A DNA stretch of 64,000 nucleotides from Procambarus clarkii. Its lineage: Eukaryota > Arthropoda > Malacostraca > Decapoda > Cambaridae. The stretch is taken from positions 28,131,850 to 28,195,849 of the forward strand of contig NC_091219.1 in NCBI RefSeq assembly GCF_040958095.1, in the 5' to 3' direction. Of the stretch, positions 4,001 to 57,950 are shown piece by piece. Made by a program: the position numbers and the translations under genes. Numbering within the stretch: position 1 is the first letter of the stretch; each line of letters starts with the position of its first letter. The notes beneath the pieces were generated by a model, which was not told the DNA's origin, did not search any database, and saw only the letters and a program-made list of their open reading frames with translations.

Positions 4001-7000
4001 GTACTGGGTAAGGGTGCCTGCCTGCAATGCCCTGAATGTGTGTACTGGGTAAGGCTGTCTGCCTGCAATGCCCAGCATGTGTGTGCTGGGTAAGGCTGCC
4101 TACCTCCGATGCCCTGCTTAAAATTTTGTCCTACAAAAATTTGTAGTCATCCTGTCCTATATTGTGGCTTGTTGAACTTGAAACCATTGCTCCTTGTTTG
4201 TGTTACATCTGACCTTTTGAAGAAGTTGCCTGCATCAATGTTGTCATCTTGCCTATATATTGAGATTGCTAGGGCTGACAGTCCCAAAGTGGGCATGAGC
4301 ATGTGAAAGCAGAAACATCATTTGCCTCTTTCAAGACCCAGCTCTATACGCACACATCCTCCTGGGGTAAGATGATAAGATTTAAGTAGTCACTGGCTTT
4401 CATGCTTCACCAGTTTCGTACATAGACTTGAAACGTCAAAACAAACATTAGCCTGACCTCAGATGATGATTGGCAACCATGAATGGAGCCATGAATGGAG
4501 CCACATCTGGAACTTAAATTTACTCAATCAGCTGATAATTATGTGTGACTACATTACCACTTCCATTACGGTCACACAAAATATCTTGGCAAACCAAAAT
4601 TTGGAAATTTTTTAGCAAATATTTTAAGATGCTCCTTCCCAAATCTTTACAGTACAGTACTTAATCATGGCTGAATGGTCCAGGAGGAGAGAGACTTACG
4701 ATGTTTATTAATTTCTTAAGAGATATGTAGACCAACATAAGATGTAAATTTTGTGTACTATTTTTCCAGACATTTTACAGTGCCATATACACCACATATA
4801 GAAGGCATAGAAAATTACAAGGGACTACAGGTGCACAGCCATGATTACCGAAAGCCTTCACCTTATGCAGGGTCCACAGTAGTGGTTCTTGGAGCTGGTG
4901 CATCAGGTCTTGATATCTCGCTAGAACTATCATCAGTGGCAGACAAGGTAAAGTACCTTGTACCTTCAATTTGTACCTTCAATGTACCTTCAATTTGTAT
5001 GAGTAGATTTTTCATATGTCTTGTATTTTAAACTTAAGTTTTGTTCTTGTTTTAACAGCATTAGCATGTTGTTGATTTAGGGGCCATGACAGCAGTGGTG
5101 CGGTATGTGCAGATATGAATACATAAGGTATAAGGAAACATGCCCAAATTTCTCACTCTGCCCAGGAATCAAACTCGGGTGTGATCTGCTGTGAAATAAC
5201 TACACTACTCACTGTATTTACTTTTACCTTTCTATCTTCATGTTTTGTCTGTTTTCGTACTTGTATAAAACAGTTAATGACGACATTGCTCATTAATAAT
5301 TCTATACATTCATGTTTTAATGCAAGTAGCAATGCTTTATATTAAAGCAAGTAGGCAGTAATTATCAAAAGAACAAACCGTATGTTATAGCAAATACACA
5401 CGTGAATGAGATTTATTAGCAAATGCTTCAAGTTTCCCTTTCATATTCTTAACACATTGAAATAATTTTACTTTTAGGGGCAAGTGTGCATTAAGTCACA
5501 TTCTGAACCCTGAGATTATACACACATCAGTTTTACTCGTACAAATTTAACACAAATTACCATCTCCTAAAAGGTAATAACTAATGAGATCATCTCTCCA
5601 AACCTGCTTGGCATTTTCACTTCCAAAAGTTATACTCTATTACACGTCTTCTTTCCCAGGTACTTCTGTCTCACAACCTTCCTGTGTCAATCCCTTCTGA
5701 ACTGCCTCCCAATATCTATCAAGTACCTGGAGCAGTGAAGGCAACACAGGAAGGATTTGTGTTTTCTGATGGCTCTAGGGCTCAAGCTGATGCCATTGTG
5801 TTTTGCACAGGTATCTATATTGGTTGCTCTACACTATTTATTCTTATATTATTTCTTAATGATAGGTATCTTCTGCATCCACGCATTAAGTTCTTTTAAA
5901 TGAAGCTTCTAAGTCACTTCATGAGACTAACTTCATATATTTTTTTACAGCTTATTAATTATTACTATTAAAGTTTATAATTTTTTCACTCACTTAGTTA
6001 AGGACTGCTTGATAAATTCCAGTGTCATACTGTATAAAGTAACTATTGATTTTGATGAGGCATTAAATCTCTTTCCAGGTTATAAATACAGTTTTCCCTT
6101 TTTGACGGAGGAATGTGGAATCCAGGTAGACGACAACTGTGTGAAGCCACTGTACAAACACCTAATCAACTCCATCTACCCATCAATGGCTTTCATTGGA
6201 ATTCCATCCAGGGTTATTGTCTTTCAGATAATTAACTATCAGGTTAGATTTTTTAATTTGTTAACATGAAACATTTACAAATTTAATATGATCCTGAAAA
6301 TTCATTATTCAGGGATTCAAAATTCATAATTTTGGAACCCCTAGCAAAAATAAGGAATACTTAAAAATACTGAAAATAAAAATTTAGGTGGTTCATGCTA
6401 TGTAGGGTCACATTTTATTTGGCTCAATGGCCAGTACCATGCCTGAGCAAAAGCAGTACTGTACCTGAGCATGAACAGTACCATGCCTGAGCATAACCAC
6501 TGCTGGAGTGTATACCAAACTCAGTTAAAATTTGTCTTTGGACAATTGTGTATACCCTGTACTTATTTTACCTATGTTGATTTATCCTGACACCTGCTTT
6601 CTAACCATCTTTTATTTCCCCTCCCCCCTCCCCCCTCCCATAGGTTCAGTACTTCCTGGCTACACTGACTGGTAGTGTTAAACTCCCTACACCAGATGAA
6701 ATGACTGCAATCAACGACAAAATTCATGAAGAGTGGAAAAAGCAAGACTTGAAAACCAAACACTTTCATATGCTGCCTACTGATCAGTGGCAATATATGG
6801 AAGACTTAGCAACAGAAGCAGGGTTGAATCAACCTCCACCTTTCTTAAAAAAGATGTGGAATATAGTAATGACGAGACTCTTCCTATCTTTTCCCATATT
6901 CAGAAGTTATGAGTACAGCCTCAAGAGTGATGGAAGTATTGTGGAAGCTAAAGATGGTAAAGTGATCAGTACCTCATGGGATCTTGGCAGACTCGTTGTC

Positions 7001-8473: not shown

Positions 8474-11400
8474 CTATTGAAGTTGGTTTTCAAACTCTTG
8501 TGGAGGCTCTTCATCACTGTCAAACTCAGCTTCATTATCCCTTGTCCAGTTTCCCAACAAATTTCTCTTCCATCCTGAGGCTCGCAGATTCTGGTAATAT
8601 TTCTCTCTCTTTAGGTTCAATTCTGAATCGACTATAGTTGATGCTTTTCCTCCAGTGCTCTGTGATGTGTCTTCAGGTGGGTTTTTGTCCATTATTGCAG
8701 GCGCTGTGCTTGTAGACTGTGGCATTTGAGACAAACATCTCTCCTTCATAACAGTATCAACAAAGTCATTCTTTTGCCAAGTCCTGTTAACATATTTTGT
8801 AACCTCATCCGCTACATTGTTAATGTGCCTTTGAGAAATAAATCCTATGCTACAGCCATCTGAAATACATACAAAAATTAAAGTACAGTACTGTATTATG
8901 AATATATCAGCATCTAAATATATCTGACTGTAAAACTTCCTGACTGACTGTTCATAATCTCAAAATCTATACTCCTTTATGCCATTTTGGTTGCCTACCC
9001 ATCACTCAAGCACTATATTTGACTTTTGTACATCTTCCCCTACCAGTGTAACAGTCATCCTCTGAAAGTGTCCACTTTGAGAGGATGACTAGCTCTACCG
9101 ACCAAGGTCTCATGAAGCAAGACCATCAACGGCAGATTGACGGTCTCACTTCATGCAGACTGGCGTTCAATCCACGACCATCTACGTGGTTAGGCACCAT
9201 TCCTTTCCCTTGTTCCATCCCAAACACCTATCCTGATCACTTAGAATTGCTATATAGTCGTAATGGCTCGGCGCTTTCTCCCGATAATTTCCTTCCCTCC
9301 TTCAATGTGTCCAAACTATCATTAAGCATTTCCGCATTTCCGCTTAATTGATTAACAGTATTAAGGGTTATGATTACAGGGTATTTTTTGCTCAATAAAT
9401 TGTCACCCCATTGTTTTATGGTAGAATGAGGTTGCTCAACCCCCAGTGCTGTGTGTGTTCAATTCTGTCATCATTTACAGGATGCCCTGTATAAAGGCCT
9501 GAACCATTTGCTGAACAGTGATGATCTTGGGTAAAACAACAGCAATTGGTAGACACAATCTATTGCAGTATTTATCGATGGCAAGACTGATTTGTGACAA
9601 AGCCAATGCAACCTGATAACCCACTGTCTGAGACAAGAGATCAGCCAGTACAGGATCCCAGCACTGACAAATGGCACACATTCGAGGCCGAATGGACTCT
9701 TGAATCCAACAAGCCAAGTGATAGAGGCAGAAGAATGGCTACTGGGGTCCAATACACCTTAAACTCATGAAAGCTGTACAACGGTATCAGGCATGGAAGC
9801 AAGCAAGTCAGTCATAACTGCCTGCTCAAAAATATAGACCTGACAATACTCCTCATTCTTATGAGAGGAATACCGGCTGCCTAGACTGTCCATAGCAAGC
9901 ATAAACTAGGTGCAGTGAAAGCACCTCAACTGAATAAACAACCACTTCTGAGATTCTGTTTAAAATCTTATGCAATATTTCAAAATTTCCCCAACTGTGT
10001 TGCACAGTTTACGGATAATTAGCAAGATCATCCCCAGACGTAGCGCACATTAGTGGGTTAAACATTAGTGGTCATGGACAGTGAGTAAATAAGACTCGTC
10101 TCCAAGTCAAATCCTCTAAAGCAAATCTCTCTCAAGGTATTGGCTAGAAAGTGGCCTAGCTCAAAGGTGTACAAGACAGCATCTGAGAAAATCTTGAAAC
10201 CCAGTTGACTTGGAAAAACAATAACCAGACATTCTGACATTTAGAGGCAGAATAGCAACCAGAGTTTTTTAGCATAATTTTAACTTGAGTGACTTGTGTT
10301 TTCCAGTTAGTACTTAGGAGGTGATGTAAGAGTAGAAACAAAACATGTTATAGTGAGAGGCATTTTTTGCTGGAGGATTAAGCATTATCTTCCCTGTCTT
10401 CCCTCTCTAATTAAGGTAGCAAGACATTTGTAAAGATAATTTTCATCATGAAACACAAGTCAACAAGAGCCTGATGGGAACGTGGTGTCCAGAGCGAGCA
10501 AATCCATGTCTCTGGGAGTAAATGAGGGGGCCCTTGCTCACAAAAGGTTAACTGTTTTACCTACAACAATATTTAACTTACCAGATTTATTTAAATAAAT
10601 TTTTGCCTTGCGACTGTAAGGAGAGAGCTTCGAGCGTTTTTTATCTTGGTTGTTTGTAGAGGACGTCCTTATCATTCCACTGGAAAGAATATAGTAATGG
10701 CACGTATAAATACTGTATACCATATAATGCACAGGCATAAAACAGCTTGTCTTTGAATTAATTAAAAATTTTAATGTTTCAATTTGACCAACTATAAATT
10801 TGTCCAAAGACTTGCTTGGCATGTTCATTGCATATTTTGTGTTATTCAATATATATTTATTTGTTATATATATATGTGTACGTACATAAATTTGATATTT
10901 TTCCATTGGGATATCTAATTAGTGTAATATGCCAAATGTCTTCATACACATTACACCAATAATGACATTGGATAAATGTTAAAACGAACATATAAAAAAA
11001 CCAGTGTTGAATGATATGAAATGCCAATTTCTTGGGCGAGCCTCAGTGGCTCCCTGAATATATCTCACTGAAATGGCCCCAACTACTAAATCTCATCAGC
11101 TATGGAGACAAGTTCAGCTGCCGTCTAACAACCAAAGCCAGAACCTGGCCCCTCTCAGAGGAGCAGAGAGTAGGTGACACTTTGCCACCTCACTGGAAAA
11201 GGCACCCAGAAAGTCAATGAATCAACATAGATCACTGCTGGGTTCAAAGAAACCAAAACCTTGCAATTTGCTGAACGAACTTCCTCAACAATGCAAAAAT
11301 GCAATAGAAAATTTATTGAAACAAGCATGCACTAATTTGCCCCATCCCTCCCACTCTCTTGAGGAAAGTTGGGTGAGGGGCTGGGGTTCATGCTGCCTAC

Positions 11401-17533: not shown

Positions 17534-20192
17534 GTAATTACCTAAGTGTAATTACCTAAGTGTAGTTACAGGATGAGAGCTACGCTCGTGGTGTCCCGTC
17601 TTCCCAGCACTCTTTGTCATATAATGCTTTGAAACTACTGACGGTCTTGGCCTCCACCACCTTCTCACTAAACTTGTTCCAACCGTCTACCACTCTATTT
17701 GCGAAGGTGAATTTTCTTATATTTCGTCAGCATCTGTGTTTAGCTAGTTTAAATCTATGACCTCTTGTTCTTGAAGTGCCAGGTCTCAGGAAATCTTCCC
17801 TGTCGATTTTATCAATTCCTGTTACTATTTTGTATGTAGTGATCATATCACCTCTTTTTCTTCTGTCTTCTAGTTTTGGCATGTTTAATGCTTCCAACCT
17901 CTCCTCGTAGCTCTTGCCCTTCAGTTCTGGGAGCCACTTCGTAGCATGTCTTTGCACCTTTTCCAGTTTGTTGATGTGCTTCTTAAGATATGGGCACCAC
18001 ACAACAACTGCATATTCTAGCTTTGGCCTAACAAAAGTCATGAACAATTTCTTTAGTATATCGCCATCCATGTATTTAAATGCAATTCTGAAGTTAGAAA
18101 GCATCGCATAGGCTCCTTGCACAATATTCTTTATGTGGTCCTCAGGTGATAGTTTTCTATCTAGAACCACCCCTAGATCTCTTTCTTTATCAGAATTCTT
18201 TAAAGATTTCTCACATAATATATAGGTTGTATGGGGTCTATGTTCTCCTATTCCACATTCCATAACATGACATTTATTAACATTAAATTCCATTTGCCAG
18301 GTGGTGCTCCATATACTTATTTTGTCCAGGTCTTCTTGAAGGGCATGACAATCATCTAAATTTCTTATCCTTCCTATTATCTTAGCATCATCAGCAAACA
18401 TGTTCATATAATTCTGTATACCAACTGGTAGATCATTTATGTACACAATAAACATCACTGGTGCAAGAACTGAACCCTGTGGTACTCCACTTGTGACATT
18501 TCTCCATTCCGATACATTGCCTCTGATTACTGCCCTCATTTTTCTATCAGTCAGAAAAATTTTCATCCATGATAGAAGCTTACCTGTCACCCCTCCAATA
18601 TTTTCCAGTTTCCAGAACAACCTCTTATGTGGAACTCTGTCGAAAGCCTTTTTTAGGTCCAGATAGATGCAGTCAACCCAACCATCTCTTTCCTGTAATA
18701 TCTCTGTGGCTCGATCATAGAAACTGAGTAAATTCGATACACAGGATCTTCCAGATTGAAAACCATACTGTCTGTCTGATATTATATCATTTCTCTCCAG
18801 GTGTTCTACCCATTTAGTTTTGATTAGCTTTTCCAATACTTTCACTATTACAATTGTCAATGATACAGGTCTATAATTGAGGGGGTCTTCCCTGCTGCCA
18901 CTTTTGTAGATTGGAACTATGTTAGCCTGTTTCCACACGTCTGCTACGATTCCTGTACACAGGGATGCCTGAAAGATCAGGTGAAGTGGAATGCTGAGCT
19001 CAGATGCACATTCTCTCAGAACCCATGGTGAAACGCCATCTGGGCCAGCTGCTTTGTTCTTCCCGAGCTCCTTTAGCATATTTTCCACTTCATCTCTAGA
19101 CACCTCTATCCGCTCTATGTTGTTCTCTGGAATTCTTATTGTGTCTGGTTCTCTGAAGATTTCATTTTGTACAAACACAATTTGGAACTTTTCATTTAAT
19201 GTTTCACACATTTCCTTTTCATTTTCCGTGAATCTGTTTCCCATTTTCAACCTCTGGATATTATCCTTTACCTGCAATTTGTTGTTTATGAATTTGTAGA
19301 ATAGGCCCGGTTCTGTTTTACATTTATCTGCTATCCCTTTTTCAAAATTTCTTTCTGCCTCTCTCCTTGCTGCTGTATAGTTGTTTCTCGCATCTTTGTA
19401 TCGCTGGTATGTTTGGGGGTTTGGCCTCTTCCTATACTGATTCCATTTTTGTGTCTTTTGGTCTCTTGCCCTCTCACAATTTCTGTCGAACCAATCCTGT
19501 TTTCTGGCCCTGCAGCTCTGTTTTGGTATGAATGTTTGTGTGCCTTCCTCGTATAGTTTTAAAAATTTGGCATACATTTCATTTACTTCCCTGCCTAGCA
19601 ACAATTCTGTCCAATTACACTCATTAAAAAATTTTCGAAGTTCCCCATAGTTGCCTCTCCTTAAATCGAGTTTATCAACTGTTTCAATGTCCCCATTTTC
19701 TTCTAGATGATATCTTAAAGCATATTTAATGTCTAACAGGACGTGATCACTCTTTCCCAAGGGAGGAAGGTACTGGATGTCAAAAATCTCTTCTTCTTTC
19801 CTGGTGAATACTAGATCCAGTACTGACGGTACATCTCCTTCCCTCATTCTTGTGGCTTGCTTTATGTGTTGATACAAGAATGTCTCCAGAATGAGGTTCA
19901 CAAATCTGCATGTCCAAAAGTCCTCCGTTCTTGCTTCATAGGCCTCCCAGTCTATTGCTCTAAAGTTGAAGTCCCCCAGTATCAACAGTCGTGATTTATC
20001 TTTATCTGCTTGTACAATAATATCTCTCATGACCATTATGAGGCCCTCTCGTTTGCCATCCAGTTCTTCCTTTGTCCATGTGTTGCTTGCTGGTGGGCTG
20101 TAGGTATTTACAATTATCAGCTTATCATCCTGATTCCAGACCTGCAATGCCATTATGTCAATATCTCGAGGGTTTTCAAATATTACAAATAG
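17534..20192 (-). mobile_element. CR1-like non-LTR retrotransposon (LINE), 5'-truncated, ORF open
   Basis: The minus strand carries one open frame of 808 codons from the first ATG (17727-20153), and it stays open upstream to the truncation point. The N-terminal part of the APE-type endonuclease is missing. What remains shows NTYSPPAS, LLILGDFNFRAIDW and PLGKSDHVLL, then reverse transcriptase with AAGPDGVSPW, YRPVSLT, DLKKAFDRVPH, SGVPQGSVLAPVMF and MFADDAKI. The C-terminal tail has RDLGVVLDRKLSPEDHIKNI. The 3' end carries short repeats (cttaggtaattaca-like). The insertion splits an older LINE. Clade assignment (CR1 group versus other Jockey-type) is from motif style only. The clean ORF suggests a recent insertion. 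Confidence 0.9.
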
Positions 20193-20228
20193 AAGGTGTA
20201 CAGGTTTCTGAGCCTATTGGGCTCTATC
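20193..20228 (-). mobile_element. Older LINE (family X), middle piece
   Basis: 'aggtgtacaggtttctgagc' and 'tattgggctctatca' resume the copy split at 17533. A further piece at about 20596-20669 ('tatggagtcagcctccacca') completes it. Confidence 0.8.
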
Positions 20229-27881: not shown

Positions 27882-29630
27882 TAAGGAGGGAGGGCAGGAG
27901 TGAGAGGGGGGTGGTATGTGGAAGTTTGGTGACAGTTGTGTGTAGTTTGTTCATCTTCATTGTAAGTTTCATGGCTTGGTGTGCATTTCCCTAGTAAATT
28001 TAATTAGGGAAAAATTCAGGTGTTTGATTTTTTAAATCAACTTTTTAAATGTTGAGTTGTTAACCCCTGCACTGCTCACCCATTTTCGGCAAAAATGTCT
28101 TGGTGCAATTCTCAAGGATATATTTCTGTTATTTTTATAATTGTTCAGGTAAAGTTAATGTCAAAATGTTTCCAAAGTCAACTATTTCCATTTCAAAACA
28201 GAAAGAGTAATGAAAACATTTAAAAATATTAAAATATAGCCTAATTAAAAAACAAAAAGCACAAATCTCAGAGCGCCTAAAGGCGCTTTGCGCAGTGCAG
28301 TGGTTAAAGCCTCAAAGTGCACGGAGTTGGTTTGGGAGTATGGCATCCTCATGCTGTTGCGTGCTCGCGTGAGGTAGCAAAGGTGATGTAAAGTTGTGGG
28401 GTGTACATGCTTGGGACGTCCTCTCTCGGGATGGCTGGTGTTAGACCTGCGTGTTTGTTGGTTGTTGAAAAGCCGTCATCCTTTGCTGTTGTGGTATTGA
28501 TTTTACACTGTTCATCTTGTAATTAATACTGTAGTGCGATATCTAGGGCTACCATTTGTAGGTTTAAAATGTCTAATACAAACAGTTGTCCAATGAGTTT
28601 TAATAGGAAATATCATCCACCAAGCACCATTGTATAATTATATTAATTGATAGTATATGGATTGTGCAGAAGTGCTTAGAATGATCTTTAACACTTGGCT
28701 ATATTGGTCATGTCAAATACCTGCACGGTGAATGCTCAAAGACCCTTTCTTTATTCAGTGTTGTCACATACCTCATGGGGGTATGGATAGGCAAAGACTC
28801 ATTCGGTTAAACTTGCCTTGTAGTACTTTCAGAGCTGAGAAATTTGGAATCTGGTTAGCACTTTCCAAATAAATTGACCTTTAAAGTGAATTCCTATTTA
28901 GGTTTAAAACATTATACCGAATGAGAAACTCGGATTATATAGCCGAACACCAGAAATGTTGTTATTCAATTTGGTTGCCTAAAGCACATTCAAGGACTAC
29001 TCATTACATGGCATTCCAGGATTCCTCTATACCTTGCCTTATGCTGTAAACATTGCCACAACCCTGTGTTTTATTGATTTAAATGGGCACAGGGAGGCAT
29101 ACAACACTGCAGATTATGATGTCATTAGTTATCCACAGTGCTGACAAGTGGGCTGACTGATGTTCGTTGACACCTGTATCGTGCTTCAATTTAATCGCCA
29201 GGAGATCACCCTCTCACTAGACTCGTCTGTAGGAAGTACAGTATAGTATCTCAAATTACCTTGGATCACAAATAGCATAAGACTTGGGGGTAGGAGAGGG
29301 TTGCAGTGTTTGTCATGGCTCTCAGTTGTTCCTGGTAATAGGCAATTTAGTTCTGGAATCATTTTTGTTGGCTAATGTTAAATTTTTTCGAAAGTAGATG
29401 TTTTTCTGAAAGGGAAGGGGGGGGGGGGGTTACCTCTATGCTTGGATACAGTTATCTAAGTGAATACTTAGATTTATACAGTAGAATAACTACCTTCTTT
29501 TCCTTAGTCAAAAAGGTTGCTTGTTTATTTCTAGGGACTTGTATTGTCTTATATTTTTAACTGCAGCAACTTTCAGTGAATGATAGATTCTTACTGAAAG
29601 GACCTTTACTTCATTGTTGTTGCTTTATGG
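27882..29630. other. No gene seen
   Basis: Mixed AT-rich sequence with scattered short ORFs and a G run of about 13 at 29415-29430. I recognise no domain, RNA gene or repeat family here. Confidence 0.3.
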
Positions 29631-29639
29631 TCATCTCAT

Positions 29640-31110
29640 TGTGTACAGGGATTCCGCGAAGCTTTTGGGGTTAGTCTTTGACACTCGTTTGTCTTGGTCA
29701 GCCCATATGTCTTGCCTCCGAGTTGAATGCTCTAAGGCCCTTAACCTCCTTAAGGTTTTGTCCCATACTTCTTGGGGAGCGGATAGGCGCACACTCCTCT
29801 ATTTGCACTCCTCTCTCATCCTGTCTAAACTCGATTATGGTTGCCCTGCATACTCTTCTGCTTCTCCTTCTACTCTTCGCCGTCTTGATGCTTTGCACCA
29901 TACTGGGTTGCGTCTCGGCTCTGGTGGCTTTCGTTCGACTCCTGCCCTTAGTTTGTATGTTGACACTGGCTTTCTCTCTCTTCAGGACTGCCGTGATCGC
30001 TACTATCTTCGCTATCTTGCGCGGTCCTTCCAACATCCTTCCTCTCGCCTCTGTCGTGCATTGACTTTTCCTCCTCCTGTGGTTCCTGTTCCTCTTCATT
30101 GTCTCCCACTTTCTGTCCAGTTATCTCGCTTACAGGATTCTCTTTCTGTTCATATTTCTAATGTTTCTCCTCGTATTGTTCCTTCATTACCTCCGTGGAG
30201 AGTCCCCCTTCCCAAGTTTTGTACGTCCTTGACTTGTATTACTAAAGCCTTTACCCCTCCTACAATTCTGAAAAGCCTCTTCCTTGAGCACTTTTCTTCA
30301 CACTCCCACTCTATTTCCATCTTCCCTGATGGGTCTAAGTCTGCGGATGGTGTGGGCTACTCTGTTGTTTTTCCTGACCGTACTTACATGTGTCGCCTCC
30401 CTTCAGAGGCTAGCGTCTTTACGGCAGAACTTTATGCTATTCTCTATGCTCTTCGTCTCTTGCTTTCTCATTCCTCCTTTGTGGTTGTAGTTGATTCTCG
30501 TAGTGCCCTCATGGCTCTAGGGTCCTTTAATCCTGTCCATCCGGTGGTCATTGAGATTCAACATTGGCTGTTTCTTATTTCTAGTAAATTTAAATCAGTA
30601 GAGTTTTGCTGGGTTCCCAGCCATATTGGTGTTTCAATGAGCGTGCGGATGCTGCCGCTAAGGAAGCTATCCGTTCTTGTCCCATCTCCCGTAAAGGTAT
30701 TCCTTATTCCGACTTTTATCCTGTTATTCATTCTTCCCCGTTGGCAGGGTTGTTGGTAAGAAGCTGTGTACTCTCAAACTTAGTGTGTCCCCGTGGCCTT
30801 CCTCCTACCACCGTAACCGGCAGTGGGACACTGCTTTGGCACGGCTGTGGGTTGGTCATACCCGCTTAACCCACGGTGACTTAATGGAGCGCCGCCCTGC
30901 TCCTTATTGTCCCTCTTACAGTTGTGCATATCCTTGTTGAATGTCCTGACTTCCAGGACAAGCGTGTGTCTTGCTTTCCGACCGTCCCTCGATAGAATTC
31001 TAGGTGAATCGGATACTTTTGATATTGTTCGCCTTATGCATTTTTGTTCTCGTATTGGCATTCTTGGTGATATTTAGCGCCCTCTGATTATTTCGCACTT
31101 TGATGGTGCT
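29640..31110 (+). mobile_element. LINE with RNase H domain, 3' copy 2, better preserved
   Basis: An open frame from 29614 to 30759 covers the RT C-terminal region (KLLGLVFDTRLSWSAHM, KALNLLKVLSHTSWGADR, LSKLDYGCPAYSSASP, LRRLDALHHTGLRL) and RNase H (IFPDGSKSADGVGYSVVF, FTAELYAILYALRLL, VVDSRSALMALGSF, CWVPSHIGVS). A frame change near the RNase H end moves the rest to another frame. RNase H-bearing LINEs belong mainly to the I, LOA and R1 groups; an I-like lineage is my guess. It is 5'-truncated and matches copy 1. Confidence 0.88.
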
Positions 31111-37350: not shown

Positions 37351-37464
37351 AGTGGTCATATTATTGGGTTGGCAAAAATGGTAATGAGATACATATATAT
37401 ACGCTGAAGAAGTGCATGTGTTTCCTTTGTGTTAAATGACGTCTCTTTTTTTAATGCCAGGCTT

Positions 37465-37830
37465 CTGACAGATGATGTCTCTTTGTTGCCAGCCTTGTGA
37501 TAGATGTCTCTCTTTGTTGCCAGCCTTGTGATAGATGTCTCTCTTTGTTGCCAGCCTTGTGATAGATGTCTCTCTTTGTTGCCAGCCTTGTGATAGATGT
37601 CTCTCTTTGTTGCCAGCCTTGTGATAGATGTCTCTCTTTGTTGCCAGCCTTGTGATAGATGTCTCTCTTCGTTGCCAGCCTTGTGATAGATGTCTCTCTT
37701 CGTTGCCAGCCTTGTGATAGATGTCTCTCTTCGTTGCCAGCCTTGTGATAGATGTCTCTCTTCGTTGCCAGCCTTGTGATAGATGTCTCTCATTGTTGCC
37801 AGCCTTAATTGTGATAGATGTCCCTCTTCG
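37465..37830. repeat. 31-bp minisatellite, about 12 copies
   Basis: The unit is tgttgccagccttgtgatag plus atgtctctctt, highly regular, with a ttt/ttc variant splitting the array into two blocks near 37.66 kb. Because 31 is not a multiple of 3 and the minus strand lacks stops in all frames, it produces a 169-codon minus-strand ORF that is an artefact. Confidence 0.95.
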
Positions 37831-38165
37831 TTCGCTTCAAAATGCAGAGTTTCTCCACACTGCAAAGTTCCATTACATAATCACTCTAAACAGTGCCCGA
37901 GAAATCCCATCCACAACACTGACGTCATTAACCCATTAAGATGAAACTCATATCTCTCTCCAACATTCACTGAGTCCCCTCAAAGTAGTTGGGACAGTAG
38001 AAGCAGTAGTAAAGGCGACAGTAGTAGGAATACCGTTATTAGTAACAGTAATAGTTGAAGTGGCAGCATGAAATAAAGAAGGAATAGGAGCAGGAGCAGG
38101 AGCAGCAGCAGCAGCAGTAACACCTGCCCCAACGAGGGTGCAAGATATCACAGGATATCCTGGAC

Positions 38166-38185
38166 GGGGGGGGGGGGGGGGGGGG
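38166..38185. repeat. G run of 20
   Basis: An uninterrupted poly(G) tract, preceded by a (GCA)n-like patch at 38.09-38.12 kb. Length may be affected by sequencing. Confidence 0.8.
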
Positions 38186-38602
38186 CCTGGTCGCTCTTTA
38201 GTAAACAAGGCCACTTTAGAGCCTCCGTGCTTCAGATACCCAGACGTTCTTCTTTTGGTTAGACAGAAAGAACCTCAGCGCTGGTCCTAAAGTGTTAGTG
38301 CCTTGGAAAGCGTTTTTTTTCGAAAGGTGATGTGTACAGATCACTTTGTGGAAACTAATTCGTTCATCAGACGGAAATTTCTTATAGAAAAAAAGCAAAT
38401 AAAAAGAGCTTCATAAAAAGACGCATTTCGCAGATTTAAAAATAGTACTGAACTTACACGACCAATGGTGTTTTAAACTAGAAACAAGTGTTCAGAGGAC
38501 CTCCGTATTCAGAGGTCTTCAGAGTGCCATCAACAGCGACTGAGAACATTAGGCTTCACAACACCACGACAGAAGTGCAATTGGAAAGAAAAAACAAAGA
38601 AA

Positions 38603-41600
38603 ATGGTTACCATAGTCTGCACTGCATCTGTCTTCTTTATCCTCACCATCAACACAGTCATTACAGCTCAAGAAGGTAACAACACCGTTCAATTCTCTAA
38701 TTCATCCAAGGACTTCAAGCCATATATACCCACAAACTTTCAACTTACCTGTTTTATGCACACTGAAATCATAAAAATGTGAGTAGAGGAGAAAACATTG
38801 CAGGTCGGCGTTCGATCCCCGATGGTCTAAGTGGTTGAGTACTATTCCTTCCCTCTGTTCTATTCCAGATCCTTATCGTTATCCAAGTGCAATATCGCCT
38901 TATTGGCTTGGCGTTTTCTCCTAATAATTAACTCACGAGAAAATATTAAGGCAATACAATGAAATCTAATTCAGATTTCTGGACTTACCCTGGGGAGTCC
39001 ATGCAAGCTCTGTGTCATTGCATTGTCTTATTATTTTGTTACCTGTTCCATTTCTCATTGCAGAAGGTGCAGTGATAACAACACACTCAGGATCAGTGGT
39101 GAACATCACCATCCCGCAGGATGTAGTAGGCACATCCAGCATCTACTTCTGGACTCACCATCCTAACACCAATGTCAGTCTACGGTTCACCAGCACCATG
39201 CACTACCAGGCTAATTTCACCATCATTCAGCCCGATGTGTGGCACATTGGCTACGTTTCTCAACCGGTGAGGACCACGGGAGAGGCTGTGCGGTGTGGTG
39301 TAGTAGTATGTAGTGTACAATGTATGGTGTAGTAGTTTGTAGTGTACAATGTGTGGTGTAGTAGTATGTAGTGTACAATGTATGGAGTAGTAGTAGTAGT
39401 GTACAATGTGGGGCGTGTATTACCTGATTTACCTGAGGGCCACTAACCCTTGTGGCCTCAGCGAGGACAGGAAGCCGGTGGCTTGTCGAAGGTCCTCCCA
39501 TATGAATGTATAAATATATGTATGAAAGAGAATGTGTGCCTTGTGAGAGCGTAGATAATATTGGAGAGACCATGTGGAAGACTGCATGTGGTGGGTGAAA
39601 CTTTTGGGCACGTTTACCTACACTTGTTGCCTTTGTTCACTGAGCAGAAAATAGGTACCTGGGAGTTAACAGATTGTTATGGGTCGCATCCGGGTAACAA
39701 TAGTCGTTAACTTAAAGGACCTCTATAGGCCTAACAAGCTTCTTGTCTCCGACAACGGAAAACTATTTAAGGAGATGGTATGTAGATAGACTCTAGAGTA
39801 GAGGTTGTGGGAAAGGCTCCTGGATGCAAGAGAAAGAGAGGAGCCGTGGGCGAGTATGAGTGTGTTACATGAAAAAAGTTTGCTGGAGTGTGACATACTA
39901 AGGATAGATTTGCTTTTATGCTGGCAGGTAAATTATTTATTAAATGAAAACGCACATTTTCCTTCACAACATTTCAATGTAAACAAGCCCTGATCTTTCA
40001 AACCCTCCAGTGCACGAAAGTGAATCTTTGCATCTACGAAATCTGTTATGCTTACAGTACTGAAAGCACCTGTCTTCCTCCCACAGACGGCAAAGACTGC
40101 AGTCAGCATCAGTATTCCTCACGGACTGATCTATACCAATTTAGACTACACGAGAGTGAGACAAGTGGCAGTCACCAGCGAGAACCTCGTCTACTGGGCC
40201 TTCTGCAAGAACCAGCACATGTGTGGTGAGTGTCTCTGAGGGGATGGCTGGCTGTTCCCGCCCGAGGCGATGGCTAAGTGTCTGAAGAGGATTGCCGCCT
40301 CTCTCTCTCTGGAGGGATGGCTGTCTCTCTCTGAGGGGGACGGTCTTTCCGAGGGATGGCTATCTGTCTCTCAGAGGATGGTTGTCCGAGTATCCGGATA
40401 TGTCTCTGAGGAAATAATTGTCTGTGGGTGTCTGACAGAATGGTTGTAACCGAGGGGATGGCTGTCTATCTGCATGACTGACTGGAAGGCTGTTTCTACC
40501 ACCTGAGGGCCACTAATCCTAGTGGCCTCGATGAGGACAGGAAGTTGGCGACTTGTCGAAGATCACTCCCCGCCCCAGTTGCCTAGATTATATTTTCCAG
40601 TTATATTTTAAAACTACACAATTTTGGCAGTTACAGCTTCGGCGGGTAGGCGGTTCCATGGATTACGAACCCTGTTGGTGTGATAGAGGAGATTGGCTGT
40701 TTATGTGTATGGGTGAGAGAGCAAATAGGGAAAAAGACAGATGGGTGAGAGAGCAGATGGATGAGGGAGCAAGTGGGTTAGAGGGGAGGTGGGTAAGAGA
40801 GCAGATGGGGAGAGCACAAGTGGGTGAGAGCAAGTGGGTCGACGATTAGAAGTTTACAATATTATCATGCATAGATCCAGCCCATCCTTCTAAAATGATA
40901 GTACTGTTCTCACAACAACTGTTTAGTCGAACTTAGAAAATTGGCAGTTGTAGCCAGCAATGTTACCATTTTGTACTAAAAATTTAACAAAGGGCTGTTA
41001 TAAGTGTGCTTGTTGTAAGCCAGTTACTCTAGTCACCCCAGTAAACAGCCGGACCTGAACTCAGTTCTCTCTCAGGAAATAATGTTACTAGCCAAAATGA
41101 CCTGTAATCAAAGGAATTGGAATGACTGAAACACCGTATCAAATTACTATAGCTGTACTTAAGTAACAGATGAATAATAATTAATCCCAGAGATTACTTT
41201 AATAAGGTGGGTAAAATTTAATAATCCAATATTGAGGCATTAATATCACTGGCCATCACAAGACTTTAATAGCACTGACTGATGTAGCAATAAACAAAAT
41301 TAAATGCTCAAGTTGCAACCAGCATCCCCTTTACAACAGTAAAGTCTTTAAGAGCATATTACTAACAAAATATCTTATCGCTGCAAAAAATTCACTGAAT
41401 ATATCACTATATAATTAATAACTAGCATCACTGCCTGACATGGTAATCCTATCCCAATAGAGAGAGAAAGGTACTTACCCAACAATTAGTAGCCCCTGAG
41501 CCACACGTCCTAGCTCCACGGATTCACAAGACCAACTAACTTTTAAAGTAAGAGTTGAGGGATGTAAGACTCTGCCTGTAGACACCACGGTGCCAGATCA

Positions 41601-43316
41601 ACGTTATTCACTTTTCTCCTATGCCAGCAACAATTCCACCATGATTTACTTTCCTTCAAATTATTACATTACCATATACTGCAAGGAAAATTTGCATATA
41701 CCAGCCTATGTAACGAATATTGACCAACCCGACATGTCTGAGGCAACCTAACATGAAACATCTATTTCAAAATGATTAACAGAATAAAACAACCAATGTA
41801 AGCCAAGAAATGGCATGCATATTTAATCACTGAACTACAGTATGTCTGGGCTTTCAACAGAAATGAATTTAGTTACGACAAGGCTATTCCCTAGTTCATA
41901 AAAAAACACTGTATAGCAAAAATAAGTACTGTATTAGGCCCAAGATAGCATATAATAAGCTTGGATTCCCTGGATAGGTTAGGTTCTTCAGTTTCTGAAA
42001 CCGTTTTTAAGAATGACATTTGAATGGCCATAATACAAAATGTGAACTTTTTGGGAGTCCAACAGTACATTTATGAACATTAAAACAAAATGGCTTCATG
42101 TACTATCATTATTGGAGGATGGGCTGTAGACCATTCTTCACACAGATATAGATTAATTTACATGTTTGGAATTCAAATTGCATTTCCCCAGCCCTGGTCA
42201 GCCCTGACAGCAGAGTCTCCAGCAGCAGATCAGTAGACCGCAACAACGCCAACAACAATATGACCAAGATCACCATGGACATCACTGCCACCACTTCCAG
42301 CAGACCTCAGTACCTGCTGGTGAGTCTGCTGGTACTCTGCCTCCTCTTCATAGCCACTTTAGTCGTCCTCAGCATCTTTTTCTGCTGCAGGAGGAGAAGC
42401 AAGCTCTTCCACGTCTATGAAAAGCCTCGTAAGTTGTCTTTATTGGCTATAGAGTATGTCTGTGTCTCGCTGTTTGTCTAGCTGATGGTTTTAATTATTA
42501 GTCAAAATATCAACAAAGAAATAAATACGTGTGATAAGGGTTACTTTAACTTTAAACTTTAAAGTAAGTTGGAGTAAAGTTACTCCAACTTTAAATTTAC
42601 AATACCAAAAGGATGGTGAAAATTCTGGCTTTTATCTCAGATATGAAAGCAACACATATTTATGTTTTTTTTTTTTTTTAGTTCACCCGCCTCTGCCGCC
42701 GCCAATGCTCCCTCGTTTCGTTATACAATCCAAGAACACCCACAACTCTGAGGACAGGGATGACGGAGCCCCCTACGATATTCCTTACGATGAGCTACAA
42801 GACCAACTGAGCAACCATCGCCGGCAGCACCAACACGACCGACGTCTCCAGCGGTCACACCAGCGCCAACACCAAAAGAACCGCCAACTCCATCGTCAGA
42901 AGGGACGTCATCATTACGACAAAACCCAGCTGGTTGACGGAAGTGGCCGTCACCTTTATCAGTATGATAATAACCAGCTGATCGACAGTAGCAACGGTTA
43001 TCTTTATGAACGTAATAACAACCAGAAGATCGCTGTAAACGATTGGCATATCTCTGAACACACCACCCAACTGGTCGACACAAGTAACCATCAACTCAAC
43101 AACACTCAGCTGGTCGACACAAGCAATCAACACACCACCACCCAGCTGGTTGACACAGGCAACCGTCAAGACACCAACACTCAGCTGGTCGACACAAGCA
43201 ATCAACACGACACCCAGCTGGTCGACACGAGCAACCGTCAACATGACGACACCCAGCTGGTCGACACAGGCGATCATGAAAGCCTCAATAGCATCTACGG
43301 CATCATTATAAGATAA
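38603..43316 (+). CDS. Single-pass membrane protein with TQLVDT-repeat cytoplasmic tail, 5 exons, complete
   Basis: The exons are 38603-38675, 39064-39266, 40087-40225, 42192-42428 and 42682-43316, all GT-AG and in phase, giving 428 codons. Residues 1-22 form a signal peptide (MVTIVCTASVFFILTINTV). The ectodomain, about 23-178, has N-glycosylation sites at N38, N61, N75 and N161 and few cysteines. A membrane segment at 179-204 (YLLVSLLVLCLLFIATLVVL) is followed by CCRRRSK, so type I topology is expected. The tail has a proline motif (HPPLPPPMLP, 219-228), tyrosine motifs (APYDIPYDEL, 247-256), a Gln/His/Arg-rich stretch, and a repeat block at 299-415 with seven TQLVD units plus variants. The start has a good context (gaaaATGG). 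Family is not recognised; a receptor or adhesion role is inference. Confidence 0.88.
38797..38940 (+). repeat. SINE-like repeat, family B
   Basis: 'ggtcggcgttcgatccccga' followed by 'tggtctaagtggttgag', 'ccagatccttatcgttatcc' and 'ggcttggcgttttctcc' is the best tRNA-like match of this family. It lies in intron 1 of the membrane protein gene. Confidence 0.65.
38950..39010 (+). repeat. Family C repeat fragment
   Basis: 'gcaatacaatgaaatctaat' followed by 'tggggagtccatgcaagct' resembles the start of family C. It lies in intron 1, just upstream of exon 2. Confidence 0.35.
39296..39415 (+). repeat. 29-bp minisatellite just after the exon 2 donor
   Basis: Four units share 'tagtagtatgtagtgtacaa', at exact 29-base spacing for the first three (39301, 39330, 39359). 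The array begins about 30 bases after the 5' splice site at 39267. Confidence 0.85.
39418..39515 (-). mobile_element. LINE family Y 3' untranslated fragment
   Basis: 'tacctgagggccactaaccc' and 'aggacaggaagccggtggct' match 1.95-2.02 and 40.50 kb. Confidence 0.6.
39635..39705 (+). repeat. tRNA-headed SINE, family A, short body fragment
   Basis: 'aataggtacctgggagttaa' resembles the family A body. A further dispersed repeat (aaggacctctataggcctaa) follows at 39.71-39.77 kb. Confidence 0.4.
40228..40480 (+). repeat. Degenerate minisatellite directly after the exon 3 donor
   Basis: About six irregular units resemble gatggctgtctgtctctgag, beginning within a few bases of the 5' splice site at 40226. 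Confidence 0.7.
40495..40690 (-). mobile_element. LINE family Y 3' fragment
   Basis: 'acctgagggccactaatcct', 'acagcttcggcgggtaggcg' and 'gttccatgg' match 1.95-2.12 kb in order. Confidence 0.7.
40700..40835 (+). repeat. Short-unit minisatellite (gagagagcagatgggt type)
   Basis: About seven units of 15-20 bases with 'gggtgagagagcagatgg' as the clearest form. Confidence 0.75.
40840..42191. other. Remainder of intron 3 of the membrane protein gene
   Basis: AT-rich and without recognisable repeats, RNA genes or coding potential. Confidence 0.4.
42924..43274 (+). repeat. In-frame coding repeat (TQLVDT units)
   Basis: About nine units of 10-15 codons share the DNA core acccagctggtcgacac. Spacing varies by whole codons, so the reading frame is kept. 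Later units are more uniform than the first three (QLVDG, QLIDS, QKIAV). Confidence 0.92.
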
Positions 43317-43373: not shown

Positions 43374-43379
43374 AATAAA
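43374..43379 (+). promoter_or_regulatory. Polyadenylation signal of the TQLVDT membrane protein
   Basis: AATAAA lies 58 bases after the stop codon at 43316. Confidence 0.6.
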
Positions 43380-48774: not shown

Positions 48775-49902
48775 CTATTTTGGTGGGTCAGGTTCAGGCG
48801 ATCCTCTCGTTAATGATGGTTTCTTAAGTACGGAAGGCTTTACTCGAACAGGTGGTTTCATTGCTGGAGTCGATCCACCTGTTGATGCTGCAACAGCCTG
48901 TAGGTATCTTGCAGCTAGCTTCGGAGTCGATGGTGCCACCGTTACTTCCTGTGTTTTTTCTGAACCTGACCGTACCTCAACTCGAACTTCAGAGGACACT
49001 TCAGTGCGTTCACTTCGCATCTCCGAGTCTAGTTGTTGCATCACATTGTCTAAACTACGTACAATACTGGATACTGACGATTCCTCTCCTTCTGTTATCC
49101 TCAACTCGGTGGCATCACTGTTTTTTTTAATTAGGCTAAGGGACGATGTTACTTTAACTGGAACAATTGTCTGAGTTTGTGCATCTGTACTATATCCACC
49201 AAAAGATTTAAGGGCCGGAGTTTTCTTCAATGTACACTGGTTTTGTTTGGCAAAAACCTCACCTGCAGTCATATCAGGAGATTGAGTGCCAGGGGATGAA
49301 CCCCCAGATGAGGAAGAACCATCATAACTTTGGCTCTCACGATGAAGGTGGGTACGGCGCAATCTGGGACTGATGCCACCTTGTTCTTTGGGGGAAGACG
49401 ATAATGGAGTAACTGGCAGATCCATTACTAAATCTGGAGCTCCAGCTACAGGCTTAGGTTTACCTCGTCGTTCCCAGAATGTACGAGGCGCAGGATAATT
49501 GAGACGTTCTTCAGAACTGCTAGAAGAAAGGTTGGAACCTTGGGAGGGGCGTCGAGGTCTCTGCTCCCACGAGTTCCCCTCAGCACGATACCCTCCATCA
49601 TCACGTACTTCTAACATACTACGAGACAATGACCCCCCACTCATGGAGTCACTGGTAGAGGAATTGATCAAACTGATGCTTAACTGCTCCATGTTTTTGC
49701 CCTTCGGAGACTCCTCCATCTTGACCCCTTCATTTGCTTCCGCCACCAATGCAGGGGCCATAGGCTGGGTCACCGACTCAAAGAAGGGGCATGAAGAGTG
49801 CTGGGTGGGTTGGGTGGAATTGGGGGAGGTGGGGGCAACACCTCCACTTTCACCCTGCATGGTGATCTGCAGAGAGCATTCACTACCGAGGAACTCCCCT
49901 GC
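48775..49902 (-). CDS. Last coding exon of an unrecognised Ser/Pro-rich protein (375 residues)
   Basis: On the minus strand a T-rich acceptor (tttttttaccaccag, ending at 49903) opens the frame at AGEFLGSECSLQITMQ, which runs 375 codons to a stop at 48775. It is rich in Ser, Pro, Glu and Arg and looks disordered. Blocks with lower complexity bias are LNYPAPRTFWERRGKPKP, APDLVMDLPVTPLSSSP, FGGYSTDAQTQTIVPVKVT, SSIVRSLDNVMQQLDSEM and LAARYLQAVAAS, ending VKPSVLKKPSLTRGSP. Such tails are common in large cytoskeletal or signalling scaffold proteins, but no family is recognised. Upstream exons should lie above 49.9 kb; none was identified with confidence before the window ends. Confidence 0.8.
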   Translation of the reverse strand, partial: AGEFLGSECSLQITMQGESGGVAPTSPNSTQPTQHSSCPFFESVTQPMAPALVAEANEGVKMEESPKGKNMEQLSISLINSSTSDSMSGGSLSRSMLEVRDDGGYRAEGNSWEQRPRRPSQGSNLSSSSSEERLNYPAPRTFWERRGKPKPVAGAPDLVMDLPVTPLSSSPKEQGGISPRLRRTHLHRESQSYDGSSSSGGSSPGTQSPDMTAGEVFAKQNQCTLKKTPALKSFGGYSTDAQTQTIVPVKVTSSLSLIKKNSDATELRITEGEESSVSSIVRSLDNVMQQLDSEMRSERTEVSSEVRVEVRSGSEKTQEVTVAPSTPKLAARYLQAVAASTGGSTPAMKPPVRVKPSVLKKPSLTRGSPEPDPPK

Positions 49903-49904
49903 CT

Positions 49905-51130
49905 GGTGGTAAAAAAAGAATAAAAAAAACATTAGAATTACGTAAAACTAAACCAATTACTGTATATGTAAAAACATTAGCACAGTTGTTTATAGGGCCT
50001 CTAGTGAGAACACCCTTAACACTTTCTTCTTCTTTTGGCAGAATATTTGCCAAAAGAATGAATTATCTATCAAATAACTATAATGGCATAAGTACACAAA
50101 CATTTGTAACATTTAAAAAAAAAAAAAAGAGCGCCCAAATCAGCCGAAGAAAATCTTAATTCTGGCACTTGAGCAAAAGTGTTGGATGACATTTGTTAAG
50201 TCTTTTATTCATAAATAAAACAAGTACTGTGATCTAAATATTCAGAATCTTATTCAGTGAGTAAATTAAAAAATACTTAATTTAGAACATTAGATTTAGT
50301 GTTTAAAAATTATTCAGTATATATAATGTACAATATACTGACTTCAGCATACAGAAAAAAAAGGTTAAGTGAAAAATATAGAACACTGTACAAGTCAAGA
50401 TACTGTATTTAGAAGAATGATTTTGTATGAACGTTGATTAGACTTATTGTGTAGTAGAATCTTCAGAGATAATTAATTGAAATTCCTTGACATTAGCATC
50501 CCAAAACCTTCCCTCAGTTTTTGTAGCTTGATACATTTTTAGAGCCATCCAGTATCACAACAGTGAGGCTACTGAAGAAGAGGTGCTGGTAGAACATGAA
50601 AATTATCAGTGTTTACCTGTAGCTAGTTTCAAGAGTTTTAGTGATGTATTTTTAAAGCCGTCTAAGCTCTGCTTTTCTGGTAAGTAAATATTACCAGGAG
50701 AAGGCACCAGCCAGGAAGACCATTTAGCACCCTCAGTGTCATGGGATATTAATTCATCAAGTTGTCATTTTACTGCATAGATTAGGGACCTATCCAAGTA
50801 TTTTTCATGTATTAATTATGAAATCTTTCATTCCATTATCATCTACTATTCAAGTACTGTAAAAAATGTTATACTAGATGAGTGCAAGCAGTAAAGTTTC
50901 ATTGTATATTTATGTATATTAAACATTTATTCTCAATGTTTGAGAAAAAACATTACTTTGAATTTTATATTGGGACAAGCTGAGGTGAAGCAAAACTTGA
51001 ATATTTCAGACCAAATACAAATAAATAAATGAAGCCCGAGTGGCTCCCCGATTTCCCCCATCCCCTCCCATTACTCCTGCAGGACTTTCTGGAAGCTTTC
51101 TTAAGTAGGGTGGCAGATTATCATTTGCTC
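49905..51130. other. Presumed intron; no gene seen
   Basis: AT-rich with an A run at about 50117-50129. A donor-like site on the minus strand near 50.62 kb (CTACAG|GTAAAC) was noted without a matching exon. Confidence 0.35.
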
Positions 51131-55050: not shown

Positions 55051-56920
55051 GGTTGTTTACACACCTAACTGATATGTAATCAAAATATTTTCAACCATGA
55101 CTATGGCATGGCATTTCTCACATATAGTGGTACTCTTGCTAGTATATATCCCATCTTTAATCTTTTAAAGAGGATGCTCTGAATACTATTGAGGGCCTAG
55201 GCAAGTGCACACTGTATAGTTTTAAAGAGGCCCAGTCACTATTGGCCTCTTCATTTCCCTGGATCTTCGTATGAGCGGGAATACCATCATGGGTACAATA
55301 TGAGAAACTATTTAAAAGTACTGTACATATAAAATAGGGGTAATCTGGGAAGGAATTAAAGGTATGCATAAAATGCCTGGAATCTGGATAAACCTATTCA
55401 AATATACAGACAAAACTATATGGAGAAGTAAAAAAGTAGAAATGTTGAGTAAGAAGTGAGAGCTGTATACAAGTGCAGGGTTGTCAGTACCTTAAAACTT
55501 ACTACAGGAAAAGATTCTGAATATTTTTTTCTTGATGCATAAAATCAAACATTGATTACAGATCCAATTTTTAGGTGAAAAGGCAATTCTTGATTGCTCT
55601 AAGTGAAATCAACTTGTTAGTAATCCAACAATATTTAAGATCATTATGAATCTTAATTAATCTACAGGATAGCTTTTATACACTACCAATGGGCTACAGG
55701 AATTCAATATGAAATTATACTATCACTGCAAATTAGGTTACAGCACTTCAAGACATTAATAATTTTTTTACTTCAATATCAATATTCTAAAAAATCCTAT
55801 AATATAAATTGTAGTTACTTCAAAAATTAATTATTCACCTCCACTCCTGTGGGACAGCATAAAAACACACATATAGCAAAACACTAATACTGGTACTTCC
55901 TGAATTTGACAAAATGAATCACAGACTTACGGGTACTTGAGGACATGTCATGTAGCAAAGTCATTTCACTCAAAAAAAGCAAGATTAAAATAAGTGTAAA
56001 TAAAAGTGAAAATGCATCTTGGTAGCCACCAAGCTACATCTACCCATCAGCACTGAAAGCAAAAGTCATATTAGAGCAAGTCAGTGTACACACACCAGCG
56101 CATCACCAGCCAAGCTCCAACTCTACCATTACCACATCCTAACACAAGCAATTTATATTCAATACAAGAATTATGGAATGCAAAATCACTAGTACATTTT
56201 TGGACCTAAGAATTTTATATAGCTACAGTATATTACTAGTCATTTTACAGTCTCAAAGAGCAGTCTCGCACACACATGCTCGCTGATGAAAGAACCAGGC
56301 CTGAAGATAGTGACGTCTTGTAACTTCCAGTACTGATTTAAATAATAGTCAGATAATAGATCAGTTGGCCTTGCTACACACAGGAGCACAACCAAGCTAG
56401 AAAGAGACTCTTCCCTCTCCCACTAGTAAATCTGACATTAATAGGTCTGCCAATATTTTCAATTCCACAATTGTTGGGTTCCTATTTTTACATTCTCCGT
56501 TATCATTGATTCTGCCCTTTCCTCCTGTGTTTATTAACCGAGCCAATTATTATGTTTTATTGTTTCGTTCATCAGCCCAGGCATTCACATGATGAACAAG
56601 TCAAAATAAATAATTCATTGTGAATAAGCTAAAGAGAACACGTTTGATTATTAATAATGTTTACTGTTGATGTCGTGTCTGATACAGTACTAGAGTGGAA
56701 AGTCAGTCATTGAAGTGTTGCCCCCAAACCTAAGCATACCTAACACTGTCCACCCCCCCCCCCACACCAAAATATAAAGGTGTGAAACAGATTATAATAC
56801 GCTTTTCAAAATTAACTTTTGAAAGATCCATAACTATTCTTTTATCTGAATTGATAGAACTTCATCCAATGACCCGAACATCAAAGGTCTTTCTCTCACA
56901 CATACACTCTCTTACCTGTC
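55051..56920. other. Presumed intron or intergenic; no gene seen
   Basis: AT-rich with a C run at about 56750-56762. No domains, RNA genes or clear repeats are recognised. Confidence 0.35.
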
Positions 56921-56925
56921 ACAGG

Positions 56926-57950
56926 GGGGTGACAGGTCAGCTTCTAACATGGATAAAAAAAATTCTAACGGAGAGAAAAATGAGGGTAGTAATCAGAAGC
57001 AATGTATCGGACTGGAGAAATGTCACAAGTGGAGTACCACAGGGTTCAGTTCTTGCACCGGTAATGTTCATTGTCTACATAAATGATCTGCCAGATGGAA
57101 TACAGAATTATATGAACATGTTTGCTGATGCTGGTAAGATAATAGGAAGGATTAACTTAGATGATTATAATGCCCTTCAAGAAGACACGGACAAAATAAG
57201 TATATGGAGCACCACTTGGTAAATGGAATTTAATGTGCATAAATGCCATGTTTTGGAATATGGAATAGGAGAACATAGACTCCACACAACCTATAAATTA
57301 TGTGAGAAATCTTTAAAGATTTCTGAGAGAGATCTAGGAGTGGTTCTAGATAGAAAACTATCACCAGAGGATCACATAAAGAACATTGTGCGAGGAGCCT
57401 ATGCTACACTTTCTAACTTCAGAATTGCTATTAAATACATGAATGGCGATATACTAAAAAAATTGTTCATGACTTTTGTTAGACCAAGAGCTGGAATATG
57501 CAGCAGTTGTATGGTGCCCATATTTTAAGAAGCACATCAACAAACTGGAAAAGGTGCAAAGACATGCCACTAGGTGGCTCACAGAACTGAAGGCCAAGAG
57601 CTATGAGGCATTAAATATGCCAAAACTAGTAAACAGAAGAAAAAGAGGCAATACGATCACTACGTACAAAATAGTAACAGGAATCGATAAAATTGATAGG
57701 GAAGATTTCCCGAGACCTGGAACTTCAAGAACAAGAGGTTATAGATTTAAACTAACTGAACAAAGATGCTGAAGAAATATAAGAAAATTTACTTTCGCAA
57801 ACAGAGTGGTAGACGATTGGAACAAGTTAGGTGAGAAGGTGGTGGAGACCAAAACCATCAGCAATTTCAAAGCGTTATATGACAAAGAGTACTGGGAAGA
57901 TGGGACACTACGAGCGTAGCTCTCATCCTGTAACTACACTTAAGTAATTA
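56926..57950 (+). mobile_element. CR1-like LINE, 3' third, recent-looking
   Basis: It matches the C-terminal third of the 17.53 kb LINE, on the opposite strand. It reads from VTGQLLTWIKKILTERKMR through TSGVPQGSVLAPVMFIVYIN and RDLGVVLDRKLSPEDHIKNI to the 3' tail (aactacacttaagtaattac). There is a stop after IWSTTW, one frame change near 57.49 kb, and the catalytic FADD reads FADA. It is dead but much less diverged than the 53.28 kb copy. Confidence 0.9.

Follow-up and report, generated by a model that had tools for sequence, protein, structure and literature searches.

A putative orphan type I receptor pair of Procambarus clarkii with conserved docking-type tail motifs and a copy-specific TQLVDT array

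A 64,000-nucleotide stretch of the genome of the crayfish Procambarus clarkii (contig NC_091219.1; C70:28131850-28195849 of a 4,027,284,227-base genome; referred to here as the window, with its start as position 1) contains a multi-exon gene whose product an earlier note, made from the letters alone, described as an unrecognised type I membrane protein whose signalling-like tail carries a TQLVDT repeat. The locus raises the question of whether this protein is real, what kind of protein it is and which part of its tail does the work. We find that the gene has one paralogue, that both copies are under coding constraint, that docking-type motifs are kept in the tails of both and that the TQLVDT array is specific to one copy. 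The description as an unrecognised membrane protein with an adaptor-type tail is borne out, as family searches are empty and the docking-type motifs recur in the paralogue. We give about an even chance to the reading that the protein is an orphan two-gene type I receptor, the tail of which docks SH2- and WW-type proteins and carries endocytic tyrosine signals, with the array as a locally expanded linker.

The gene lies on the forward strand and, as had been proposed, its five exons are fully in phase from an ATG at 38603 to a stop codon at 43314-43316, encoding 428 amino acids; five exons make four junctions, not the five that had been counted. Intron phases are 1, 0, 1 and 1, and an in-frame stop lies upstream of the ATG. 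Exon 1 (38603-38675) contains the start codon and, by hydropathy, a signal-type peptide (about residues 1-22); of the 25 codons that align with exon 1 of the paralogue, 13 are shared (0.52). Exon 2 (39064-39266) encodes the N-terminal ectodomain, with the conserved core IYFWTHHPNTNVSL..QPDVWHIGY, and exon 3 (40087-40225) the remainder, including two cysteines (C132 and C138) conserved in both copies; each of these exons is 61-62% identical to its counterpart. Exon 4 (42192-42428, 52% identity) encodes a Ser/Thr/Asn-rich stalk, the membrane segment and the start of the tail, and exon 5 (42682-43316), supported by the reading frame and the exon plan of the paralogue, encodes the cytoplasmic tail and stop. 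When AG acceptors from 42000 to 42289 were tried for exon 4, those at 42192, 42216, 42234 and 42237 were open and in frame; 42192 is favoured because CAL..PD.R is common to the gene and its paralogue. An AATAAA poly(A)-type signal (43374-43379) lies 58 bases 3′ of the stop. The coordinates and content of the gene are confirmed.

The strongest support for the gene being real is the paralogue, the only convincing one in the 4.03-Gb genome, because it has the same exon and phase plan. Exon 2, searched at expectation values (E) up to 0.001 only, matches a single other place (C20:20666317-20666499); exon 3 likewise has a single further match, close by, and the tail matches there as well. The paralogue is a complete gene of 363 residues, with five exons at positions 718-790, 2304-2500, 4177-4315, 5472-5696 and 6011-6468 of locus L026; it shares the intron phases and splice-site positions of the window gene, donors and acceptors are canonical in both copies, and identity is 56% over 353 aligned codons. 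Three non-coding pieces of the 5′ flank (37843-37927, 37988-38069 and 38149-38393) align with the 5′ flank of the paralogue, and promoter sequence was therefore duplicated along with the gene. Some 770 bases before the start codon lies a 31-base tandem repeat of 12 copies (37455-37832). In the paralogue, intron 2 contains an extended G-rich array (L026, about 2410-3570), both strands of which are free of stops over long stretches; a long open frame in this genome can be nothing more than a repeat.

Queried with exon 2, exon 3, the joined ectodomain of the paralogue, the proximal tail and the membrane segment, the genome yielded only the gene and its paralogue below E 1 (for exon 2, at E up to 0.001). 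Two matches on contig C26 have E 1.6. One (L035), considered as a distant copy, was rejected, as it is without the YDxPYDxL continuation and its sequence is shared with DNA downstream of the paralogue, which suggests repeat DNA; L034, the second match, was read in translation on one strand only. Searching with the full tail brought up 111 matches, of which 109 lie elsewhere, at E 5e-4 or worse. Viewed as a set, these mostly cover the repeat part, and many have stops or overlapping registers, as tandem arrays give. Scans of the viral and prokaryotic collections (viral_contigs and genome_contigs) with exon 2 gave no relative.

Between the two copies, the proportion of synonymous differences (pS, 0.440 overall) exceeds that of nonsynonymous differences (pN, 0.263), with the order reversed in 0 of 2000 bootstraps; both copies therefore evolved as proteins. 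The same order is found in the juxtamembrane tail (pS 0.496, pN 0.198; reversed in 0 of 2000), the repeat part (0.627 and 0.350; 5 of 2000) and the C-terminus (0.833 and 0.271; 2 of 2000), and the difference is not significant individually in the core of exon 2, exon 3, the stalk or the membrane segment. Residues 25-50 (39064-39140) form a divergent segment in which pN (0.405) exceeds pS (0.170), as it does in 370 of 378 gap placements; the maximum there is reached by 161 of 2000 shuffles when all windows are scanned, and positive selection is suggestive only. Synonymous divergence in exon 2 as a whole (39064-39266 versus L026 2304-2500; pS 0.198) is far under that of exon 5 (0.62), a difference that could reflect gene conversion between the two copies over their 5′ half.

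The predicted order of signal peptide, glycosylated ectodomain, one membrane segment and a tail of about 224 residues agrees with what we find: a hydrophobic N-terminus, four sequons (N38, N61, N75 and N161), all before the membrane segment, and a single strong hydrophobic segment (about residues 179-203, 42311-42385; hydropathy up to 3.2 in a 19-residue window). By hydropathy, both copies have an N-terminal signal peptide, a single membrane segment and basic residues on its inner side (CCRRRSK here, CRGRRSQ in the paralogue), suggesting a type I single-pass topology.

The ectodomain, of about 120 residues, matches no known family, as the note had it. Pfam searches at E up to 10 with the whole protein and both ectodomains gave six matches in all, none above its own cut-off and none to an immunoglobulin (Ig) or fibronectin type III (FNIII) domain. 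The best, DUF4501 (E 0.0041; 17.6 bits versus a cut-off of 29.6), and Cadherin_C_2 (E 0.0057) lie over or around the membrane segment and were rejected as homology. NCBIfam gave 0 matches at E up to 1, and the PDB searched by sequence gave no significant match (lowest E 0.8 with the ectodomain as query and 0.41 with residues 1-282). Folded separately, exons 2 and 3 are all strands, at a low-confidence mean predicted local distance difference test (pLDDT) score of 65.1 each, and the ectodomain is probably beta-rich. A fold search with the exon 2 model (pLDDT 65) gave 205 matches at E up to 10, the best at 0.43 and 0 at 0.001; these are scattered, with many low-scoring filamin Ig-like domains, and were not used. 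Exon 3 was not accepted as an internal duplicate of exon 2, four scores being reached by 52 to 165 of 2000 shuffles. Literature searches with the peptides TQLVDT, PYDIPYDEL, HPPLPPP and YFWTHHPNT returned nothing beyond a human acetylome, and one on decapod orphan inhibitory receptors returned only an unrelated match.

The layout had been likened to that of adaptor-recruiting receptors. The tail does contain the PPLPPP and PYDIPYDEL that had been noted, and the likeness gains weight from the paralogue tail, in which the docking-type motifs are kept. Four blocks are common to both copies: LFHVYEKP, HPPLPPPxLPRxVIQS, YD[IL]PYD[EQ]L and ESLNx[IL]Yx[IV]I. HVYEKP (42410-42427), with the YxxP tyrosine Y214, and the proline motif PPLPPP (42687-42704) are identical in the paralogue. 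YDIPYDEL (42774-42797) joins a YxxP motif to IPYDEL (Y249 and Y253), which resembles an immunoreceptor tyrosine-based inhibitory motif (ITIM); its counterpart is YDLPYDQL. The C-terminal ESLNSIYGIIIR (43278-43313, Y423) is conserved between the copies as ESLNNLYCVILE. All four tyrosines of the paralogue tail have counterparts in the window gene, which has five further, unshared tyrosines. Candidate partner classes are Crk-type proteins for YxxP, WW-type proteins for PPLP and clathrin adaptors for YxxI/L. PPLP is rare by chance, in 0 of 2000 shuffles of this tail and 10 of 2000 of the paralogue tail. The ITIM pattern (I/S/V/L)xYxx(V/L), as printed in PMC6851185, is matched by IPYDEL here and by LPYDQL in the paralogue.

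Several points tell against the receptor reading. A lone ITIM match is not rare by chance: shuffling produced one in 460 of 2000 cases for this tail and in 200 of 2000 for that of the paralogue, and N..Y turned up more often again (1120 and 627 of 2000). NPxY and the spacing of an immunoreceptor tyrosine-based activation motif (ITAM; a Y..[LI] pair 6-12 apart) occur 0 times in both tails. The ectodomain alone is weakly constrained (ratio of nonsynonymous to synonymous rates, dN/dS, about 0.8), the exon 2 core, exon 3 and the membrane segment falling short of significance, and all comparison is between two sequences only. What carries the case for the putative docking sites is their conservation rather than any match to a pattern.

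The repeat had been presented as the key feature of the tail. Its description holds: there are seven TQLVD (six of them TQLVDT) and two weaker variants, NNQLID and NNQKIA, and the count of seven is equalled by 0 of 2000 composition shuffles. The six TQLVDT units (43065-43268) start at residues 346, 359, 371, 384, 395 and 408, a spacing of 11-13 residues, and the seventh TQLVD and the variants lie upstream of them (42924-43034). Its central role is not supported, as the paralogue contains 0 TQLVD and the array is copy-specific. The paralogue ends in TQKTDTSNR..NQERDTDDPESLN, which aligns with TQLVDTSNR..TQLVDTGDHESLN here (score 74, 0 of 2000 shuffles); the Q..DT skeleton is kept by the paralogue in two aligned units and LV never. 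The paralogue has NDNTQ units of its own, with three occurrences of TQ..D (0 of 2000 shuffles). At the DNA level, too, the array is a tandem repeat, and the C-terminus is conserved in frame beyond repeats of different length in the two copies. The simplest history would be that an old linker was expanded separately in each copy by tandem-repeat slippage.

Known systems offer partial parallels. Draper, CED-1 and MEGF10 are single-pass receptors with tail tyrosine motifs read by SH2 or PTB proteins; PMC8092387 reports that Src42A phosphorylates Draper and that Corkscrew binds an ITIM of Draper-II. The window protein, in contrast, matches neither EMI nor EGF domains in Pfam at E up to 10, its ectodomain is small, and NPxY and ITAM spacing are found in neither tail; membership of the Draper family was rejected on these grounds, and Draper serves as an analogy only. 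Crustacean Dscam is likewise an arthropod membrane receptor with polyproline and other tail docking motifs, according to PMC6851185, but the window protein gave no Ig or FNIII match in Pfam; that paper states that shrimp and crab Dscam are without an ITIM, whereas both copies here match the pattern. The array resembles ASCIZ-type LC8-binding arrays in having several short TQ-core motifs, here 11-13 residues apart, in a presumably disordered strip. However, the LC8 motif [D/S]KX[T/V/I]Q[T/V][D/E], as given in PMC3078936, and the short form [TVI]Q[TV] occur 0 times in both tails, and an LC8 client was rejected. Each TQLVD also has Q at 0 and D at +3, the spacing of the TRAF minor motif Px(Q/E)xxD (PMC6125299), but P at -2 is absent and P.Q..D occurs 0 times in both tails; a client of TRAF1/2/3/5 by this motif was rejected.

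We read the protein as a receptor because its layout, its conserved docking-type motifs and its fast ectodomain fit binding outside and recruitment inside; topology beyond hydropathy, ligand, phosphorylation, partners, uptake and tissue we infer. The small glycosylated ectodomain would bind a ligand, and the tail would serve as a flexible docking strand with PPLP and four tyrosines kept in both copies, set in YxxP, in ITIM-like YxxL and in a C-terminal NxxYxxI/L. On receptor clustering, a Src-type kinase may phosphorylate the tail tyrosines, a Corkscrew/SHP-2-like phosphatase may then dock at [IL]PYD[EQ]L through SH2, and Crk-type SH2 adaptors may dock at YxxP. WW- or SH3-type proteins would also dock on the tail, and the C-terminal tyrosine signal could drive clathrin uptake. 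The TQLVDT array would have grown, in this copy alone, from an older Q..DT linker unit; it would make the tail longer and might contribute weak multivalent binding.

Alternatively, as the note proposed, function may reside in the array, which would offer a repeated partner domain a multivalent strip and let the receptor cluster a single adaptor. Within the array, the six-unit core varies at 4 of 6 third positions and at 0 of 12 first or second positions, whereas in the four codons that follow, 4 of 8 first or second positions are variable (Fisher p 0.014 versus the core). The units were picked by exact TQLVDT, so that core identity is partly built in, although they are spaced too evenly for one to have been missed. 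Binding to a repeated partner could still occur, because the core amino acids are kept within the array, and the threefold TQ..D of the paralogue points the same way; yet the paralogue shares Q..DT alone, both tails are without the LC8 and P.Q..D patterns, and a DNA tandem repeat by itself yields repeated peptides, and we consider this explanation unlikely. A surface glycoprotein for adhesion or surface coating, without tyrosine signalling and with tail motifs for cytoskeletal anchoring or trafficking only, is possible, if on balance doubtful: it accommodates the sequons, the Ser/Thr/Asn-rich stalk and the chance-rare PPLP, and YDEL and the C-terminal YxxI/L can be taken for nothing more than sorting signals, but the YxxP and ITIM-like tyrosines are conserved next to a divergent stalk.

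A duplicate in decay or without expression, left with an open frame by chance, would suit the fast ectodomain, but is most improbable given that in both copies all five exons are intact and the splice sites canonical, and given the excess of pS over pN and a C-terminus in frame after repeats of unequal length. A bolder proposal, which we think quite unlikely, is a crustacean-lineage inhibitory-type receptor pair with a new ectodomain fold, the N-terminal ectodomain diversifying at residues 25-50 and the tails having separately amplified a TQ..D docking unit into multivalent strips.

Elsewhere, the window contains an 828-codon LINE-type endonuclease/reverse-transcriptase frame on the reverse strand (17727-20213; RVT_1, 1.7e-30), weaker RNase H and RVT_1 matches on the forward strand (29587-30756 and 56734-57219) and a reverse-strand frame with an SCNM1 acidic C-terminal region (8474-8959; 8.6e-13). 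A 390-residue Ser/Pro-rich open frame on the reverse strand (48775-49947), with no Pfam match at 0.01, is possibly a large exon of an unrecognised gene. The crustacean neurohormone family gave nine matches over cut-off in this genome and matches in 0 of 14 control genomes, as expected of a crustacean; five neurohormone-type exon matches, four with equal scores and one on the opposite strand, lie within about 56 kb (G000:C37:10181571-10237901) and form a local hormone gene cluster.

If the orphan receptor reading is true, the conserved pair, with its ITIM-like tail, would add a candidate for inhibition or uptake to the families in terms of which crustacean immunity is described. The gene is also a clear example from nature of a tandem repeat that has expanded within coding sequence, in the tail of a putative receptor, with the docking motifs beside it unchanged.

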